From contig JAUIHP010000028.1 of NCBI GenBank assembly GCA_030431975.1, forward strand, positions 1 through 64,000: a stretch of DNA of 64,000 bases. Reading direction: 5' to 3'. Within the stretch, counting starts at the first letter, position 1, and the number at the start of each line of letters is the position of its first letter. The notes below the pieces were generated by a model. The model saw only the letters and a list, made by a program, of their open reading frames with translations, had not been told where the DNA came from and made no database searches. Made by a program: the position numbers and the translations under genes. The DNA comes from a bacterium. GTDB taxonomy: Bacteria > Eisenbacteria > RBG-16-71-46 > CAIMUX01. Below, piece by piece: positions 41,147 through 49,431 of this stretch.

Positions 41147-44100
41147 TTACCTCTTCACGACTTTCGAGATGCGTTCGTCGTTTCCGATGCGGAAGCGCGC
41201 GAAGTAAACGCCTGGCCCCACCGCTCTCTGCGAGTCGTCGAGTCCGTCCCAGCGGATTTCCGATCGACCCGAGGCGACTCGACCGCGGTCGAGAGTGCGA
41301 ACCAAACGTCCGGCAGCGTCGAAGAGTGCCGCTTGCAGGGGCGCCTCATCGGGAGATGCGATCTCCCAACGAACCTCGTGCCCGAAGGGGTTCTCCGTCA
41401 GCAGTCGCACGTCCAGGTCTTGGGGCGTGTTGTCCAACTCGGTGTCATTGTCTTCCGAGACATCCGTGACGGCCGGGTCGTAGATGCTGAGTTGATAGGT
41501 GCCGGTCGTTCCCGACCGATTCCAGATGACGAGTCCGTAGACGTCCTCATCCACCGAGGTGAACTCGATCGACTCGCTGAGTCGGGGGCCGTTGGGGTTG
41601 GCGATGGCCACGGCGTCCCCACGCGAAGCCTTGTACGGACCGTCGTTGGAGCGGAAGAGCGCCATTCCGAGATCGAGGCCTCCACTGAGAGCATCGAGTT
41701 CGATTCGGATGTCCTGCGGATTCGACCGGGAGCCGGGGAGCGGCAGGTCGAAGACTTCAACGACTCCGTCGAATGGCCAGTCCCTTTCCTGGATGATTTG
41801 ACCTCCCGGGACGAAGAGGAACGATCCCTGTCCGCTGTCGAACTCCACGGTGAGGAATCCGTCCGCGGCGTTTCGGGCGCGCAGATACTGCCAGTCGAAG
41901 GATTCGTGGTTGTAGTCCATGACGACGAAGGGAACTTCCGTGCCCTGGTCGTTGGCCTCCTGCTGGCCGTAGCCTTCGTCTGCATAGAGCGTCATGGACG
42001 CGTCGCCGCCTTCGGAACGACAGCCCGCCGCGGCCCATGCGCCGGCACTGATGGACAGATGAGTTCCCCAGGTCACTTCGTCGGTGAATACGGCCGGCGT
42101 GTTGTCGTTCCACACCGTCTTCGGTCCGAACCACAGTTGGTACGACGATGCCGCTTCCAACTCCGAAGACATGACGAGTCCGAAGCGGTCGTTGACGATC
42201 GGTGAGAACGAAAACCACTCGCCGTTCTCCGACGGGGGACGGGATACGGACGATGCGAGGGCGTCGCTCCGGGACTTGAAGTGATCTCCGTCTCCTGAAT
42301 AGAACAAGTGCAGTCCGCGTAAACCTCCGGCTTCGTAGGTGCGGAAGAAGTAGGTACTGCCGGCTTTGAGAAAGATGTCCCAGACCTTACCGAGATCTTC
42401 GTGTTCCCAACTTCCGACCGCGCGACCGCCAAGCAGGTCGTAGCCGTGCTCCCACTCGACCTGCTGTCCAACGCCGCCGCTGACGAAGCTGCGCACGTAC
42501 TCGGGTTGCCAGGGGGCGTGATTGTAATCGGCGACGATGAACTCGAGACCGCCCGAGCCGGAGGACTCTTCGAGTTCACTGGTGAAGCTGGAGTCGTCAA
42601 AGAGTCGTAGCGTGACGTCGCCACCGGGAGCGGCCGGGCGGGCGCCGACGAAGGACCAGGCAGAGACTCCGGGTGTGTACTGATAAAGGCCGAGAGACGC
42701 CGTCGTCTCGACCGTCTGGTCGTCCGTCAAAGGGAACGTGGTGGGACCGATCTTCAGTGTGGCGGTTCCGGTGTCGGCGCCGTTTGACCACAGGACCAAA
42801 CCGTAGACGTCATCTTCCGGAACAAGGTAGCTGACCGACTCCACTGCCCCTCCGGTGCCGCCGTCGCGGATCCATTCTGCGTTGGAACGGTTGCCGCGAA
42901 ACGTGGTTCCGTTGGAACGGAACAGGGCCATTCCGAGGTCGAGTCCACTTGACGGGTCGAGGACGAAGCTCAACGGCTCCCCGGCAAAAAGAGGAAGTTC
43001 GAAGACGCGGGCCACGTCGCCCGTGCCCCAGTTGCTGGTGCGTGTGACTCCGTCGGCGTAGACTTCTTCCGTTCCCGACTCGAATTGCAGTCGATAGCTA
43101 CCGCTTCCTGCGATCTTGTCGACCAGGATGTAGTCGTTCTCGGGCGGCATGTGGTTGTAATCGCAGACGAGAAGTTCGACCTGGTTACCGGCGTTCGATG
43201 TTGCATACAGGTGATTGAGATTGTTCTCTCCGTAAAGCTCGAGTTCGTGCACGGAGCCCGGCGGATTTCTGAGTCCGACGACCGTCCAGTTCGGGTGCCG
43301 GGCCGGTGCGACCCAGGTCGAGACCAACTCTGAGGAAAGGACGGGCTCGCCACTCAGAAGCTCGACGGATGGGGCGAAGACCTCCATAAAGACGCGGCGC
43401 CGAGTGTCGTCCAACTTTCCATCAATGTTGGAGTCGCGCCAGGCGACATGGTTGCGTGTGAAGGAGCAAAGGACGAAGTCGTTGGCCTTCATCAGACACA
43501 GGTCACCCGGGTTGCCGCAGGAGAGGTCACAGTTGAAGTTCGGCGTGGGGTTGGCCTGATAGGTACCTTGGCACGTTCCGCAGTCGAGTCCGTTGTTGCA
43601 GGTGTTGTCTTCGACGTATTCATCGCAGGCACCGAAGAGATGGCCCCATTCGTGGGCCCACACAGCCCAACCGGAGTTCGGATAGAGCGCGGTTCGGGAG
43701 AAAGAGTAGGAAGCCCAGGCACGACCGACGACGTCTGCCGGTTGAAAGACCAGCAGGACGTTGTCCCAACCACCAAAGGCGTTCTGCAGCGCAAGTGAGT
43801 AGTCATCGACGATCCAGGAGTCGCCGTCGAGGTCGCTGGCCCCGAGCGCGGCGAGCGCCGCTTCCATGGTGGCGGAGCCCATCCCGCTGTCGGGAATGGC
43901 TGAGTTGAGGGTTGCCGTGACGGACCAGTAGCCGTCCAAACCTTCGTAGTCGAAGTGAAGGTTGGGAAGGCTTTCACCGGAGGGCGAGACGGGAACGCGG
44001 TTGAGCCAGAACTCCTTGGCAAGGGCGGCCCGAGCGCCGGACTCGTCCATCTCCGATGTGTTCCAGGTTCCCTGGGTGTGGTTGACGAAGACGTGAAGAA

Positions 44101-44716
44101 CGAGCGTGCTCCCGCGGGCGTAGTGGGCCGCGTCGTCGTCGAGATTTGCCCCGGTGCCCATCATGGCGAGACCGTTGTCGAACTCGTTGATGCCGATGTC
44201 GATGCCGGATTCGGAGTCGGAGCCGGAGCCGGAGCGGGGACCCGTCCGGAGGTTCGAGTCACCGAGCCGAGCCGCGCGCTTCCGCTCGATCTCGGCCTGT
44301 TCCTCGCGCACGGACTGGGCATCGCAGAATGCGCTGTGCGGGAGCCCCTCTCCGTCCATACGCGATGTGCTTTCCCGGCGAACCTGGTCGATCAGGGCTG
44401 CCGGAATCGATCGGGCGACCGGCCGGGTACCCAGGTGGCTGGGCCAGTCTTCCAGCGTGGCGGGAGAGGTTCCCCTGCCGGAGAAGACCGGGGTCCCGTC
44501 GCTTGGCGTCCCCACCACCGCGGGCGCGAACAGCGGCGCAGTTTCCACGGCCGCGCCTTGCGTGGCGGCGCGGGCGCGGTCCAACTTTTGGGCCTCGAGG
44601 TCGGTCGGAGCCGCCCGGCCGGTCGTGGCCACCAGGATGAGGCAGAGGCCGAAGAGGGCCGCGGCCATCGTCCATTGCCGTTGGGCGGGTCGGTAGGTGA
44701 ATGTGAAGCCAGTCAT
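41147..44716 (-). CDS. Large secreted metallopeptidase-like protein with FlgD-like tail
   Basis: An 1189-residue exported protein. The signal peptide has FGLCLILVATTGRAA. A zinc-peptidase motif H355-E-W-G-H lies in WAVWAHEWGHLFGACDEY, followed by a Cys-rich loop (CNNGLDCGTC, CDLSCGNPGDLC) and RNHVAWRD, a layout of zincin-type peptidases. Three or four repeated beta-rich units follow; each has FDLPL or FELPL, a DLGMALFRSN strand and VYGLVIW or VYGLVLW. The C-terminus is FlgD/Por-like (AALFDAAGRLVRTLD … GVYFARF). GGGAG precedes the ATG by nine bases. Probably a surface or secreted protease; substrate unknown. Confidence 0.8.
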   Translation of the reverse strand: MTGFTFTYRPAQRQWTMAAALFGLCLILVATTGRAAPTDLEAQKLDRARAATQGAAVETAPLFAPAVVGTPSDGTPVFSGRGTSPATLEDWPSHLGTRPVARSIPAALIDQVRRESTSRMDGEGLPHSAFCDAQSVREEQAEIERKRAARLGDSNLRTGPRSGSGSDSESGIDIGINEFDNGLAMMGTGANLDDDAAHYARGSTLVLHVFVNHTQGTWNTSEMDESGARAALAKEFWLNRVPVSPSGESLPNLHFDYEGLDGYWSVTATLNSAIPDSGMGSATMEAALAALGASDLDGDSWIVDDYSLALQNAFGGWDNVLLVFQPADVVGRAWASYSFSRTALYPNSGWAVWAHEWGHLFGACDEYVEDNTCNNGLDCGTCQGTYQANPTPNFNCDLSCGNPGDLCLMKANDFVLCSFTRNHVAWRDSNIDGKLDDTRRRVFMEVFAPSVELLSGEPVLSSELVSTWVAPARHPNWTVVGLRNPPGSVHELELYGENNLNHLYATSNAGNQVELLVCDYNHMPPENDYILVDKIAGSGSYRLQFESGTEEVYADGVTRTSNWGTGDVARVFELPLFAGEPLSFVLDPSSGLDLGMALFRSNGTTFRGNRSNAEWIRDGGTGGAVESVSYLVPEDDVYGLVLWSNGADTGTATLKIGPTTFPLTDDQTVETTASLGLYQYTPGVSAWSFVGARPAAPGGDVTLRLFDDSSFTSELEESSGSGGLEFIVADYNHAPWQPEYVRSFVSGGVGQQVEWEHGYDLLGGRAVGSWEHEDLGKVWDIFLKAGSTYFFRTYEAGGLRGLHLFYSGDGDHFKSRSDALASSVSRPPSENGEWFSFSPIVNDRFGLVMSSELEAASSYQLWFGPKTVWNDNTPAVFTDEVTWGTHLSISAGAWAAAGCRSEGGDASMTLYADEGYGQQEANDQGTEVPFVVMDYNHESFDWQYLRARNAADGFLTVEFDSGQGSFLFVPGGQIIQERDWPFDGVVEVFDLPLPGSRSNPQDIRIELDALSGGLDLGMALFRSNDGPYKASRGDAVAIANPNGPRLSESIEFTSVDEDVYGLVIWNRSGTTGTYQLSIYDPAVTDVSEDNDTELDNTPQDLDVRLLTENPFGHEVRWEIASPDEAPLQAALFDAAGRLVRTLDRGRVASGRSEIRWDGLDDSQRAVGPGVYFARFRIGNDERISKVVKR

Positions 44717-45033: not shown

Positions 45034-48000
45034 ATGACTGAGCGTCCCGACGCGGACCAGGGCCAGGACCGGGCCGAAGAGATCGCGGCCGAGTTGGCGG
45101 ACGGCGCCCTCCTGGATTGGGAGGACCTTCGCTCGTCCTCGCCGGACCTGGGATCCACGCTGCAGCGGCTCGAGGAAATCGAACGGATCGCGCGGTTCCA
45201 CGAGCGGGTCGGCACCGACGAGCCGCTTCCAAAGGGGGATCCGTGGGGACCCCTCGTCCTTCTGGGACAGATTGCGGAGGGAGCGTTCGGGCGAGTCGAT
45301 CGCGCCTTCGATCCGACTCTCCACCGGGAGGTCGCTCTCAAACGATCGAAGGTGCACAGCCCCGGCGCATCGGACCGACTGCTGGCCGAAGCGCGCCGGT
45401 TGGCCCGCGTGCGGCATCCGAACGTCGTGGCTGTCTATGGCGCGGCGGAAGTCGACGACGAAACCGGGATCTGGATGGAGCCGCTGCAAGGGCGAACCTT
45501 GGAGGCGGCTCTTCACGAAGATGGGCCGATGAGTCCGGCCACCGTTCTCGGGATGGGACGAGACGTCGCGTCCGCTCTGGCCGCCATTCACGGTGCCGGT
45601 CTGGTTCACGGTGATGTCAAAGCGAGCAATGTCGTCGAGGACGAGACCGGCCGGTATGTCCTCATCGACTTCGGTTCCGGACGGAATCTCGATCGGCTGG
45701 ATCTGCCGTTCCCCAGCGGCACTCCCCTCGTCCTTGCGCCGGAAGTCGTCGAAGGTGGGGAGACCTCGCCCGTTTCCGACCTTTACGCGCTCGGCGTGCT
45801 TCTCTTTCGTCTTCTTTCCGGGAGGCATCCGGTTGAAGTCGAAGACATGAAGGCTCTGGTCGAGGCGCATCGTGTCGGGCGGAGGGCCAGCCTCCGCGAA
45901 CTTCGAAACGATCTGCCGCCGGCGCTGGTCGGGTGGGTCGACTCCCTGTTGGATCCGAATCCAGTGACCCGACCGGGTGAGGCGCGTGTTGTTTCCGAGG
46001 GGTTGGCCTCACTCTTGGGGTTGATTCCGAACGTGAAAGAAGCCGTCGAACTTCGGTCACCGCCGATGCGTCCGACCGTCGCGACCACGACGACGCCCGG
46101 GCCGTTGACAACGCCGTCGAACACGCCCGCGAATACGCTCACGCCCACGAATGCGCCCACGCCCACGAATGCGCCCACGCCTTCGAACACGCCCACGAAT
46201 ACGTCCACGCCGCTGCCCTCGTCCATGCCCACCTCGAGTTCCTCGACGACGCCCTCGACCACGACCACCTCGAGCTCCTCGACGACGCCCCCGTCCATGT
46301 CCACGTTCACCTCCGGCTCGACCTCCACACCGTCGTCCACCTTGACGTCGGGATGGTCGTTTGGTCCGCCTTGGGATGCGCTTCCGAGAACGTCCGACCG
46401 CTTCGTCGGTCGCGCCGCGTTGCTCCAAGACGTGACGACCCAACTCGAGTCGGGCTCCACGCTCACTCTGCTTGCGCCCGGTGGGTGGGGAAAGTCCCGC
46501 CTGGCGCTGGAGGTGGCGCGGACGCTCCGCCTGCGCAGGCGGGACGGCGTTGTTTGGGTCGACCTTCGCGGAACGCAGGGGGGAGCGTTTTGGGGCGCGG
46601 TTCTTGCGGCACTCGGACCGGAGATGCGTTGCCCCGATCCTCGCGAGTTCGTTCTCGAACGGTTGCGTGGACGGGAAGTGCTGATCGTCGTCGACAACGC
46701 AGAGTCTTGTCCGGATGAGTGTGTTCGCCTGATTGACGACTTGTCAGATTCCGGTCTTCAGGCTTCGATCTGGCTGCTCTTCACGTCACGGGAGAGTCTC
46801 TCCCACCCGGCGGAATCGACGGTGGCGGTGACGCCGCTCTCTTCCGGTACGGAGTCCGACGCCGCGGTGACGTTGCTCTCTTCCGCTGACGACTCTGCGG
46901 ATGAAGCACTGGAGCTTCTTGTCGACCGGATTCGGGCCCGGGTTCCGGGGCGTGACCTCGCGGCGTCGACGGCCGCTCTTAAGGAGATCTGTCACCTCAC
47001 GGGCGGTGTGCCGTTGGGACTGGAGCTCGCGGCGTCGCAGTCGGATCTCATGACTCCCGAGGAGATCGTTCGCGGATTGCGACGACGGGTCAGCGCGGAC
47101 TCTCCACGGGACCCGGAATGGAAACGACTCGAGCCGTGTTTGCATTGGTCCTACGAGCGTCTTTCTTCGGAAACGCAAACGCTGCTGCGCCGGGTCAGTG
47201 TCTGGTCACGAGCCTTTCGCGTTGAAGATGCGGCGTTCCTTCTCGAGACCGAGGACACGTGGGAAGCGGCGGCGGCGGTGCGGGAGCTTTCAGAGCGAGG
47301 CTTTGCCCGGTCGGAGGATGCCGGCCCGCACAGACCTCACACCCCGACCAACCCGTATAGTCCGCATAGCCCGCAAAGCGCGCATAGCCCGCAAAGCTCG
47401 GAGTCTCGCGAGTTTCGTCTGGCCGAGCCGGTGCGACGCTTTGGTCGGGCGCGGCTCCTGGATCAGTCGGAAGAACCCTTGGCCTTGCGTCTTCATGCAG
47501 ATCGTTTTCTCGAACTGTGTCGCGCGTTGCCGGACTGGCCCACGTATGCCGGACGTCCGCTGCCCGCATGGGTTGGGCGCGCTCACGCGGATCTCGTCGG
47601 GGCGTGGAAGCACTGCCTGGCGCAGGGTCGGTGGGAGGACGCGGCGGAACTCTGCATTCGATTGGCGCCGCACTGGGCCGCGGGCTATCGAGCGTTGGAA
47701 GCGGCGGCGGTACTCACCGAAACGATAGAGTCCGCGGGTGAGGAGTCCAAAGCGAAGGACGAGGAACGGCGACTCGTACGACTGTACCTCCTTCTGGGCG
47801 GAGCGAAACAGAACCTACGTCGACATGCTGAGTCGGCCGAAGCGAACGAGGCGGCGGCGCGGTTGGCGGAGCAGGCGGGGGATCGCGCGCTCGAAGCCTT
47901 TGGTCTGTCGCGTGTGGCCGGATCCGAAATCGTGCTCGCGCGACCCGAAATCGCCGGCAAACACCTGGAAAGAGCTTGGGAGCTGGCCGAGGAGATCGGT

Positions 48001-48747
48001 GCGCCGTGGCTGCTCGGAAACGTGCAAGCGAATCTGGCCCTGTGGAATCAACGGACCGGGAATCTGGTCGAAGCTCGAAGGTGGAGCGAACGGTCTTTGG
48101 CTTCGCGGAAACGGGCGGGCAACCGAAGTGGAGAAGTGGTGGCGCTCCTCAGTGTCGCCTCCATCGCCTGGGAGGAAGAGGAGTTCGACCGCGCCCGCAA
48201 GTATCTGAGGCAGGCGCTCGAAGTACTGCAGGTCGTTCCGGATACATCCCTCAGCGCTCTCATCCTTTTCAATCTGGGTAACATCGAGGCCACCGTCGAG
48301 AACAACGAGCCCGCCCTTGCTTGTTGGCGTGAGGCTCTCGAGCTGCTCGAGGCCGCACCCGAGCCGATTCTTCGAACCCGATGCAGGTCGGCGATCGCAC
48401 GTATCGACCCGACGGTCCCGTCCTATGAAGCGCGTCAGGCGTCAGCCGAGGAACTTGCCCTGGACCTGGATCGTGTTCCCGGCGCCGTGCCTCATTCGCT
48501 GCATGGGTACGCGACGCAACTGGTTCGGGAGTCTCGCTCCGCGGACGCGGTCCGGCTCTACGGTGCAGCTGATGCGTTGCTGAAAGAGTCCGGTCTGGTC
48601 GCGCCGAAATCCCGCCTCCAGTCCTACGAGCAGGAACTCCGCCGTCTCGAGAAACTGGAACCCTCTTTTTCGGATCTGTGGCAGGAGGGAGCGTCGGATC
48701 CGGATGCCGTCATTCGGTGGACTCTCGATGACGCGTCCCGTGAGTGA
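45034..48747 (+). CDS. Ser/Thr kinase fused to NB-ARC-type ATPase and TPR repeats
   Basis: A 1237-residue cytosolic signalling protein with no membrane helix seen. The Hanks-type kinase (residues ~72-345) has EGAFGRVDRAF, the Lys of EVALKRSK (K103), HGDVKASN at 192-199 (Gly for the usual Arg, so a non-RD kinase) and DFGSG at 212. A Thr/Pro/Ser linker spans ~350-437. Then DRFVGR opens a STAND/NB-ARC ATPase with APGGWGKSR and VLIVVDNAES; a second low-complexity patch (PHSPQSAHSPQSS) interrupts it near 770. TPR repeats fill ~880-1200. The ATG at 45034 has AAGGAG upstream, from the repeat. An ECF sigma gene follows 12 bases later. Confidence 0.87.
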   Translation: MTERPDADQGQDRAEEIAAELADGALLDWEDLRSSSPDLGSTLQRLEEIERIARFHERVGTDEPLPKGDPWGPLVLLGQIAEGAFGRVDRAFDPTLHREVALKRSKVHSPGASDRLLAEARRLARVRHPNVVAVYGAAEVDDETGIWMEPLQGRTLEAALHEDGPMSPATVLGMGRDVASALAAIHGAGLVHGDVKASNVVEDETGRYVLIDFGSGRNLDRLDLPFPSGTPLVLAPEVVEGGETSPVSDLYALGVLLFRLLSGRHPVEVEDMKALVEAHRVGRRASLRELRNDLPPALVGWVDSLLDPNPVTRPGEARVVSEGLASLLGLIPNVKEAVELRSPPMRPTVATTTTPGPLTTPSNTPANTLTPTNAPTPTNAPTPSNTPTNTSTPLPSSMPTSSSSTTPSTTTTSSSSTTPPSMSTFTSGSTSTPSSTLTSGWSFGPPWDALPRTSDRFVGRAALLQDVTTQLESGSTLTLLAPGGWGKSRLALEVARTLRLRRRDGVVWVDLRGTQGGAFWGAVLAALGPEMRCPDPREFVLERLRGREVLIVVDNAESCPDECVRLIDDLSDSGLQASIWLLFTSRESLSHPAESTVAVTPLSSGTESDAAVTLLSSADDSADEALELLVDRIRARVPGRDLAASTAALKEICHLTGGVPLGLELAASQSDLMTPEEIVRGLRRRVSADSPRDPEWKRLEPCLHWSYERLSSETQTLLRRVSVWSRAFRVEDAAFLLETEDTWEAAAAVRELSERGFARSEDAGPHRPHTPTNPYSPHSPQSAHSPQSSESREFRLAEPVRRFGRARLLDQSEEPLALRLHADRFLELCRALPDWPTYAGRPLPAWVGRAHADLVGAWKHCLAQGRWEDAAELCIRLAPHWAAGYRALEAAAVLTETIESAGEESKAKDEERRLVRLYLLLGGAKQNLRRHAESAEANEAAARLAEQAGDRALEAFGLSRVAGSEIVLARPEIAGKHLERAWELAEEIGAPWLLGNVQANLALWNQRTGNLVEARRWSERSLASRKRAGNRSGEVVALLSVASIAWEEEEFDRARKYLRQALEVLQVVPDTSLSALILFNLGNIEATVENNEPALACWREALELLEAAPEPILRTRCRSAIARIDPTVPSYEARQASAEELALDLDRVPGAVPHSLHGYATQLVRESRSADAVRLYGAADALLKESGLVAPKSRLQSYEQELRRLEKLEPSFSDLWQEGASDPDAVIRWTLDDASRE

Positions 48748-48759
48748 CGTGTCCCGCCA

Positions 48760-49431
48760 ATGACGTGTCCAGCGAGTGAAGCGGCCGGCTCCGACTCTGC
48801 TAGAATTTACTGCGTGTCCCTCTCGAGTCCAAAGAGTCCCGTGACCCAGGCATTGGGTTCCACGGCGGACCTGTTGACGGCGGCTCGGTCCGGCGACGAG
48901 CAGGCCGTACGTCGACTGGTCGAACTGTATCGGCCGCTGCTCGAACGTTGGGCTCGCGGACGGTTGCCCGGAAACGCACGAGGACTCGTTGAGACCTCCG
49001 ACCTCGTCCAGGTGGCGATGGTTCGTGCCTTGAACCGCATCGACCAGATCGACGCGAAGAGGCCGGGCGCGTTTCTCGCCTATCTACGACGGACCCTTCT
49101 CAATCAGCTTCGCAACGAGATCCGCAACGCGTCGCGCCGCCCGGCATCGGCAGCTTCCATGGACGAGGAGGGTCGTGATCTGGAGGCTTCCCTTCCCGCT
49201 TCTCCACTGGTCGTCGAGTTGGGATCAGAGTTGATCGAACGCTACGACGACGCGCTGTCCGGGCTGCCGGAGACGCAACAGATCGCGGTCATTCTTCGTG
49301 TGGAGTTCGGGTGTGGTCACGGCGAGATCGCCGAAGCGATCGGCAGTCCGTCCGCAAACGCCGCACGGATGGTAGTGTCTCGCGCACTGGTCCGTCTGGC
49401 CAAGAAGATGGATGAAACCACCACCGACTAG
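48760..49431 (+). CDS. ECF RNA polymerase sigma factor
   Basis: A ~205-223 residue sigma-70-type factor with region 2 (ARSGDEQAVRRLVELYRPLL, GLVETSDLVQVAMVRALNRI) and region 4 (SGLPETQQIAVILRVEFGCGHGEIAEAIG, then a helix with NAARMVVSRALVRLAKKM). The layout fits ECF groups coupled to Ser/Thr kinases. The ATG at 48760 lacks a ribosome site; GTG at 48814 has TAGAAT at 48801-48806 seven bases ahead and may be the true, nearly leaderless start. It follows the kinase-STAND gene and lies ten bases before a DinB-fold gene. No anti-sigma factor is adjacent. Confidence 0.85.
   Translation: MTCPASEAAGSDSARIYCVSLSSPKSPVTQALGSTADLLTAARSGDEQAVRRLVELYRPLLERWARGRLPGNARGLVETSDLVQVAMVRALNRIDQIDAKRPGAFLAYLRRTLLNQLRNEIRNASRRPASAASMDEEGRDLEASLPASPLVVELGSELIERYDDALSGLPETQQIAVILRVEFGCGHGEIAEAIGSPSANAARMVVSRALVRLAKKMDETTTD

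Follow-up and report, generated by a model that had tools for sequence, protein, structure and literature searches.

A soluble kinase-STAND-TPR protein encoded beside an ECF sigma factor with an invariant threonine in an acid-retaining sigma2.2 motif

The window, the whole stretch of 64,000 nucleotides analysed here, carries a gene for a Hanks-type kinase joined to a STAND ATPase and TPRs (P0001), followed by a gene for an ECF sigma factor (P0002) (Table 1). The pair represents a real, conserved type of module whose sensor is unusual, and the strongest new point about it is an invariant threonine, T79, in a sigma2.2 motif that has kept its acidic residues. On its best reading, the pair would be a variant of the ECF systems controlled by kinases, with a cytosolic sensor that resembles that of PknK. 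The two genes probably form a module in which a soluble kinase with a STAND-TPR sensor would control the adjoining sigma factor.

Table 1. Positions in the window of the two genes, their domains and motifs, and the repeat at their junction
Feature	Position	Strand	Basis or remark
Kinase-STAND-TPR gene P0001, 1237 aa	45034..48747	+	open frame; AAGGAG 7 nt 5' of ATG 45034
Hanks-type kinase domain, residues 77-319	45262..45990	+	PF00069, 122.8 bits, cut-off 31.7
Catalytic loop HGDVKASN (non-RD), residues 192-199	45607..45630	+	direct reading
DFG, residues 212-214	45667..45675	+	direct reading
Thr/Pro/Ser-rich low-complexity linker, expanded in P0001	46080..46350	+	tandem repeats; kinase-to-P-loop distance
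Walker A APGGWGKS, residues 481-488	46474..46497	+	direct reading
Walker B VLIVVDNAE, residues 549-557	46678..46704	+	direct reading
STAND GxP motif GGVPLGL, residues 657-663	47002..47022	+	direct reading
Best TPR match, residues 1037-1106	48142..48351	+	PF13424 (TPR_12), 51.4 bits; helical repeats in low-confidence model
16-bp x 3.2 tandem repeat over kinase stop and annotated ECF start	48729..48779	+	
ECF sigma factor gene P0002; uncertain start, with GTG 48814 and GTG 48841 as alternatives	48760..49431	+	Sigma70_r2, r4_2
sigma2.2 motif E78-T79-S80-D81	48991..49002	+	alignment; S80 is at the ECF43 phosphosite position
S148, sigma2-sigma4 linker	49201..49203	+	Ser in 108 and Thr in 6 of 129; immediately precedes helix 149-167 as its likely N-cap

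Both genes lie where an earlier note on this DNA had placed them, and direct reading bears out its description of a kinase with no Arg in the catalytic loop and an intact DFG. The VALK Lys and the alpha-C Glu are retained as well; in the GxGxxG loop Ala replaces the first Gly, as in 4 of the 116 partner kinases described below. No TM helix was predicted C-terminal of the kinase domain. P0001 joins an N-terminal Hanks kinase to STAND NTPase motifs in one predicted soluble chain, as is characteristic of a PknK-like protein. The fusion of kinase, linker, NB-ARC-type ATPase and TPRs proposed in that note holds for the motifs and the TPR match. The ATPase region of P0001 itself gave only sub-threshold Pfam matches (nSTAND5, AAA_22), and NB-ARC exceeded its cut-off only in two paralogues, L031 (39.5 against 23.5) and L046 (24.7 against 23.5). 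The predicted STAND unit of P0001 is identified by its Walker A, Walker B and GxP motifs together with these two paralogues. A single-sequence structure model of the STAND-TPR part was poor (pLDDT 48.7), and TPR proteins were the only matches of this part among PDB sequences. The long linker is peculiar to P0001: the distance from kinase to P-loop is 163 aa, against 52-65 aa in the 11 other kinase-STANDs of the family, and it is encoded by tandem repeats at 46111-46304. There is a further tandem-repeat expansion inside the gene at 47352-47397. In three kinase-STAND paralogues of the same genome the catalytic-loop Lys is replaced (HGDVNDGN in L046, HGDVSARN in L038 and HRDLSPNN in L032).

P0002 matched Sigma70_r2 (43.8 bits) and r4_2 (31.0 bits), each above the Pfam cut-off. 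Its AF2 model (pLDDT 83.7, 59 sequences) had E. coli sigmaE, 1or7, as the best fold match (E 1.8e-5), with a TM-score by query of only 0.40, low because the two domains are placed differently. That the sigma gene adjoins the kinase gene is confirmed, but the spacing of 12 bases claimed for it depends on the annotated ATG at 48760. This start is uncertain because the codon lies inside the 16-bp repeat, where no Shine-Dalgarno sequence is evident, and because family homology starts only at about residue 30. S148 was considered as a special phosphosite and rejected, as it directly precedes helix 149-167 and its SPLE context is also found in an ordinary ECF (L035). Compared with ECF43-like ECFs and with ordinary ones, the family of P0002 has a one-residue insertion in the turn of the sigma4 helix-turn-helix (PSxNAARM, P0002 residues 195-204), with which promoter specificity may differ.

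The genome of the window (6.19 Mb, 59 contigs) has 66 kinase-family matches, some of them pieces of one gene, and 40 PF07638 matches. By alignment, the latter divide into 23 ECF43-like proteins with a QPTA-type motif, 7 proteins of the window type with [DE]TxD, here called class B, and 10 ordinary ECFs, 8 of which have an acid at both ends of the motif. The label ECF43 for the 23 is drawn from the motif and the kinase order. P0002 scored 25 bits with PF07638, against 73-201 bits for the 23; for this weak score and its acidic sigma2.2 motif we rejected its assignment to ECF43. Assignment to TIGR02984, a Planctomycete subfamily, was likewise rejected on its score of 75.9 against a curated cut-off of 183.75. 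Class B may already carry an ECF group number.

The class B family is sharply bounded: its HMM gave scores of 208-276 bits for 139 ORFs and 189 for one more, then dropped to 67 for the next. The 140 ORFs include 129 distinct members. They were collected from two sources. A search of relatives with P0002 gave matches at 1e-10 or better in 24 of 39 genomes, the genome of the window included; for 53 of the 60 matches outside that genome the surroundings were taken, and the other 7, none better than 4.8e-18, were left out and include two fragments with 47 and 51% identity. A wider collection was scanned with two peptide patterns lying away from the sigma2.2 motif, and so away from T79, and the best 80 of 105 relatives were used, so that the distribution is a sample. 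The family is present in Ca. Eisenbacteria and relatives, Acidobacteriota and Lysobacterales, with Tahibacter, Marinicella, Pseudofulvimonas and Wenzhouxiangella among the named carriers in those best 80.

A kinase gene lies on the same strand within 1.5 kb of the ECF gene in 116 of the 129 distinct class B members. This bears out the earlier expectation of conserved co-occurrence, and kinase-STAND partners also recur, in 12 of the 116 pairs. The ECF gene comes first in 109 pairs and the kinase gene in 7, among them those of the window, L031 and L046. In the ECF-first pairs the ends often overlap, in 29 cases by 4 bases, with ORF starts assigned mechanically. Nine of the other 13 members had no kinase in the stretch and 4 had one far away or on the opposite strand; some were at contig ends. 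In the genome of the window, a same-strand kinase was close by for 5 of 7 class B ECFs, 17 of 23 ECF43-like ECFs and none of the 10 ordinary ones. The kinase-ECF pairing, as read from these gene orders, is conserved across phyla. Identities of ECFs and of kinase domains also co-vary (r=0.53, with a maximum of 0.16 in 1000 permutations) in 112 of the 116 pairs, 4 being left out for short kinase domains; among pairs with ECF identity below 60%, r was 0.36. Such co-divergence also follows from shared operon descent. A shared promoter motif was sought upstream of 108 pairs and rejected, as none rose above shuffled sequences, so these regions give no sign of autoregulation.

The partner kinases keep the Lys in 115 of 116, the alpha-C Glu in all 116 and the HxD Asp in 114, the remaining two being unaligned. 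Their catalytic motif is HGD in 80, HRD in 29 and other or unaligned in 7. The non-RD motif that the earlier note had singled out in P0001 is thus the norm among the partners and not remarkable. By a simple rule of hydropathy and P-loop, 84 of the 116 have a TM helix after the kinase domain, 12 are STAND proteins, 10 have another soluble arrangement and 10 are short or cut. Three partners scanned for other sensors had DUF4384 (two) and FG-GAP repeats (one). All 12 kinase-STANDs come from the genome of the window or its relatives, and the P-loop rule found no STAND among the kinases of the named loci (best 80 of 105). Mapped on the ECF tree, STAND and TM sensors require at least 6 changes by parsimony and gene order requires 4; the tree was made by a quick method with 57 of 126 inner branches open, which makes it a weak basis for the 6 changes. 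The trio of the window, L031 and L046 had an SH-aLRT of 84 and was not starred. These patterns suggest that the ECF output stays while the sensor is exchanged.

As for other neighbours, the gene after P0002 (49441-49938) begins 9 bp past its stop, belongs to the DinB_2 family and is possibly in the same transcript as the pair. It was rejected as a conserved third partner, having no other match in class B loci. A regular expression for a zinc-type membrane anti-sigma ORF directly downstream matched at 0 of 129 class B ECFs and also at 0 of 10 control ECFs, so that it had no positive control. A TPR-CHAT-like (caspase-like) protein lies within 6 kb in 30 of the 129 loci, on the same strand and within 250 bp in 21 of these, and often overlaps or abuts the pair (for example, L081:8583-11864, L082:441-3812 and L205:8533-11529). 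Pfam confirmed CHAT in 4 of 4 tested, and the start of the one sequence read through resembles a signal peptide. None lies beside the pair of the window, and none of the 10 CHAT matches in its genome lies beside a class B ECF. The pathway may have these proteins as an output. Mention is made elsewhere of bacterial systems in which an ECF, a TPR protein and a caspase-type protein come together (PMC8195603). Divergent from the kinase gene, 41147-44716 encodes a protein of 1189 aa whose C-terminal domain is FlgD-like and in which HEWGH looks like a metalloprotease motif. Members of its BLAST cluster occur near 28 of the 129 class B loci, although the shared tail may be all that holds this cluster together.

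Position 79 is Thr in every one of the 129 class B members. It is set among acids, with D or E at position 78 in 123 of 129 and at position 81 in all 129; position 80 is acidic in 80 members and Ser in the window. T79 is one residue before the ECF43 phosphosite, position 80, which is the phospho-Thr in EcfP and EcfK. In the AF2 model of P0002, helix 79-92 starts at T79. Among the ECF43-like ECFs of this genome, as read by eye from their alignment, all 23 had Thr80, none had an acid at 78 and four had one at 81. By the same alignment, two families of kinase-linked ECFs therefore coexist in one genome; sigma2.2 has a single invariant Thr in each, and the two threonines are offset by one residue in contrasting charge settings.

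The precedents for direct sigma phosphorylation are EcfP/PknT of V. parahaemolyticus and EcfK/PknS of X. citri, both of ECF43 (PMC8999054 section 3.4; PMC13147305). The window pair resembles them in having an ECF beside a Hanks-type kinase, with putative control without an anti-sigma factor and a candidate Thr in sigma2.2, the motif in which a Thr serves there as the switch. It differs in that ECF43 has lost the acidic DxxD and carries the phospho-Thr at position 3 of the motif (STTA, QTTA, QATE), whereas ETSD keeps the acids and has Thr at position 2 and Ser at position 3. Of the features that define ECF43, the pair has the adjoining kinase and lacks both the loss of DxxD with Thr at position 3 and the close similarity. 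PknS is a transmembrane kinase, unlike the STAND-TPR protein of the window with no predicted TM helix. It is the loss of the sigma2.2 acids that renders EcfP dependent on being phosphorylated (PMC8999054 section 3.4). Because ETSD retains them, the EcfP model, in which phosphate is the missing charge, does not carry over, and the ECF may need no phosphorylation for core binding. Control of the ECF43/EcfP type, which the earlier note implied, thus does not fit a protein that falls outside the ECF43-like set and has acidic residues at 78 and 81. The other STPK-linked groups, ECF59, 61, 62, 217 and 283, share the link to a kinase, and in them the DAED-like motif is reported kept, with Ser or Thr in or around it in some groups (PMC8999054 section 3.4). 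The model members listed for these groups are from Planctomycetes and Nocardioides (PMC8999054 table), while class B is from Eisenbacteria and relatives, Acidobacteriota and Lysobacterales (best 80 of 105).

For the sensor, PknK of Mycobacterium tuberculosis is likewise a soluble chain in which a Hanks kinase is followed by STAND at the C-terminus; a reported transcriptional target of PknK is VirS, of the AraC family, and not an adjacent ECF (PMC4381067, PMC4601284). MalT and PH0952 share the STAND core and TPR sensor, and with them the assumed activation logic; they set the precedent for autoinhibition of a STAND protein with a TPR sensor (PMC6468293). MalT is itself a transcription factor, whereas the effector in the window would be a kinase with a separate sigma factor. 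Among titles and abstract openings of the open-access literature, we found no report of a kinase-STAND protein paired with an ECF.

Two fusions tie sigma factor, kinase and STAND together, as read from their predicted domains, though through the other, ECF43-like, family. One, in the genome of the window (L028:6947-10873, or G000 C55:103150-107076), is a 1308-aa frame with an ECF43-like sigma factor at 19-200, a kinase at 235-501, STAND from 556 and TPRs to 1162. The other, from a genome of the same family (G002 C510, L220:1-2679, minus strand), has sigma factor, kinase, P-loop and GIPLAIEL, a putative STAND, in a frame open at the end of the stretch; it is 46% identical to the first over residues 24-387. 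In the 47 genomes of the class that were searched at 1e-50, with no more than 32 candidates scored in each, there were 14 matches, of which only these two span sigma factor and kinase.

Non-RD kinases generally rely little on activation-loop phosphorylation, and little reliance on it would be expected of P0001 as an HGD kinase. By analogy with PknK, MalT and PH0952, P0001 at rest would be monomeric and closed, with ADP bound. The ATPase would be freed when an inducer acts at the TPRs, and its ATP binding and multimerisation would bring the kinase domains together. The kinase would then phosphorylate the ECF directly, as in EcfP and EcfK. T79, where the sigma2.2 helix begins in the region contacting the RNA polymerase core, is the likeliest site, although as a candidate it falls short of probable. 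Since the acids are already there, a phosphate on this residue would not be making up for an absent charge; it would adjust core binding, more likely by strengthening it and possibly by blocking it. In most relatives found, a TM kinase would serve the same ECF family, and here a cytosolic sensor would replace the membrane sensor.

The retained acids would also suit a kinase that acts as an off-switch, the ECF being active unless phosphorylation of T79 (or S80) weakens its binding to core, so that the STAND sensor shuts the regulon or releases it by stopping the kinase. Positions 78 and 81 are acidic, and in 80 of 129 members position 80 has built in the charge that ECF43 gains by phosphorylation. 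The kinase-ECF systems that have been tested, EcfP and EcfK, are however activating (PMC8999054 section 3.4; PMC13147305), and we regard this reading as unlikely. It is also conceivable, though less so, that the kinase has a different target, either itself or a separate regulator, with the ECF merely co-expressed or bound by the kinase without phosphorylation. T79 could then be structural or core-contacting, because all 13 class B members without a neighbouring kinase keep it and because an ECF-like ORF outside the family (L027:162-755, motif DTRE) has Thr at the same place; its position as the first helical residue of the model would agree. However, this Thr is never replaced in 129 members, while at position 79 the ECF43-like ECFs of the same genome have Pro or Ala and the ordinary ones Ala (9) or Ser (1), by eye, and ECF43-like sigma factor and kinase are fused in one chain twice.

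The two genes might instead be a duplicate of the L031/L046 type that is degenerating, but this is highly improbable. The linker of 163 aa instead of 52-65 aa, the low-complexity insertions with their repeats and the junction repeat (48729-48779) would be in keeping with decay. Both frames are nevertheless open with positive coding scores, from a scoring model trained on the window itself; the STAND motifs and the kinase Lys, Glu, HxD and DFG are kept, and both sigma regions score above cut-off.

Phosphorylation of the ECF by its kinase could, in its widest and rather doubtful form, amount to a second and chemically different sigma-phosphorylation switch. Kinases with exchangeable sensors, membrane or STAND-TPR, would phosphorylate an invariant Thr in the first turn of the sigma2.2 helix throughout a broad, acid-retaining ECF family; the sensor here would have become an NLR-like STAND hub, and two genomes would hold single-chain receptor-kinase-sigma proteins made of a STAND-kinase and an ECF43-type sigma factor. 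How kinase-linked ECFs that keep a DAED-like motif are controlled was stated to be open in a 2022 review (PMC8999054 section 3.4). The class B family offers one invariant residue to mutate and 116 pairs to choose among, and in its STAND variants a sigma factor would couple NLR-like sensing directly to the choice of promoter.
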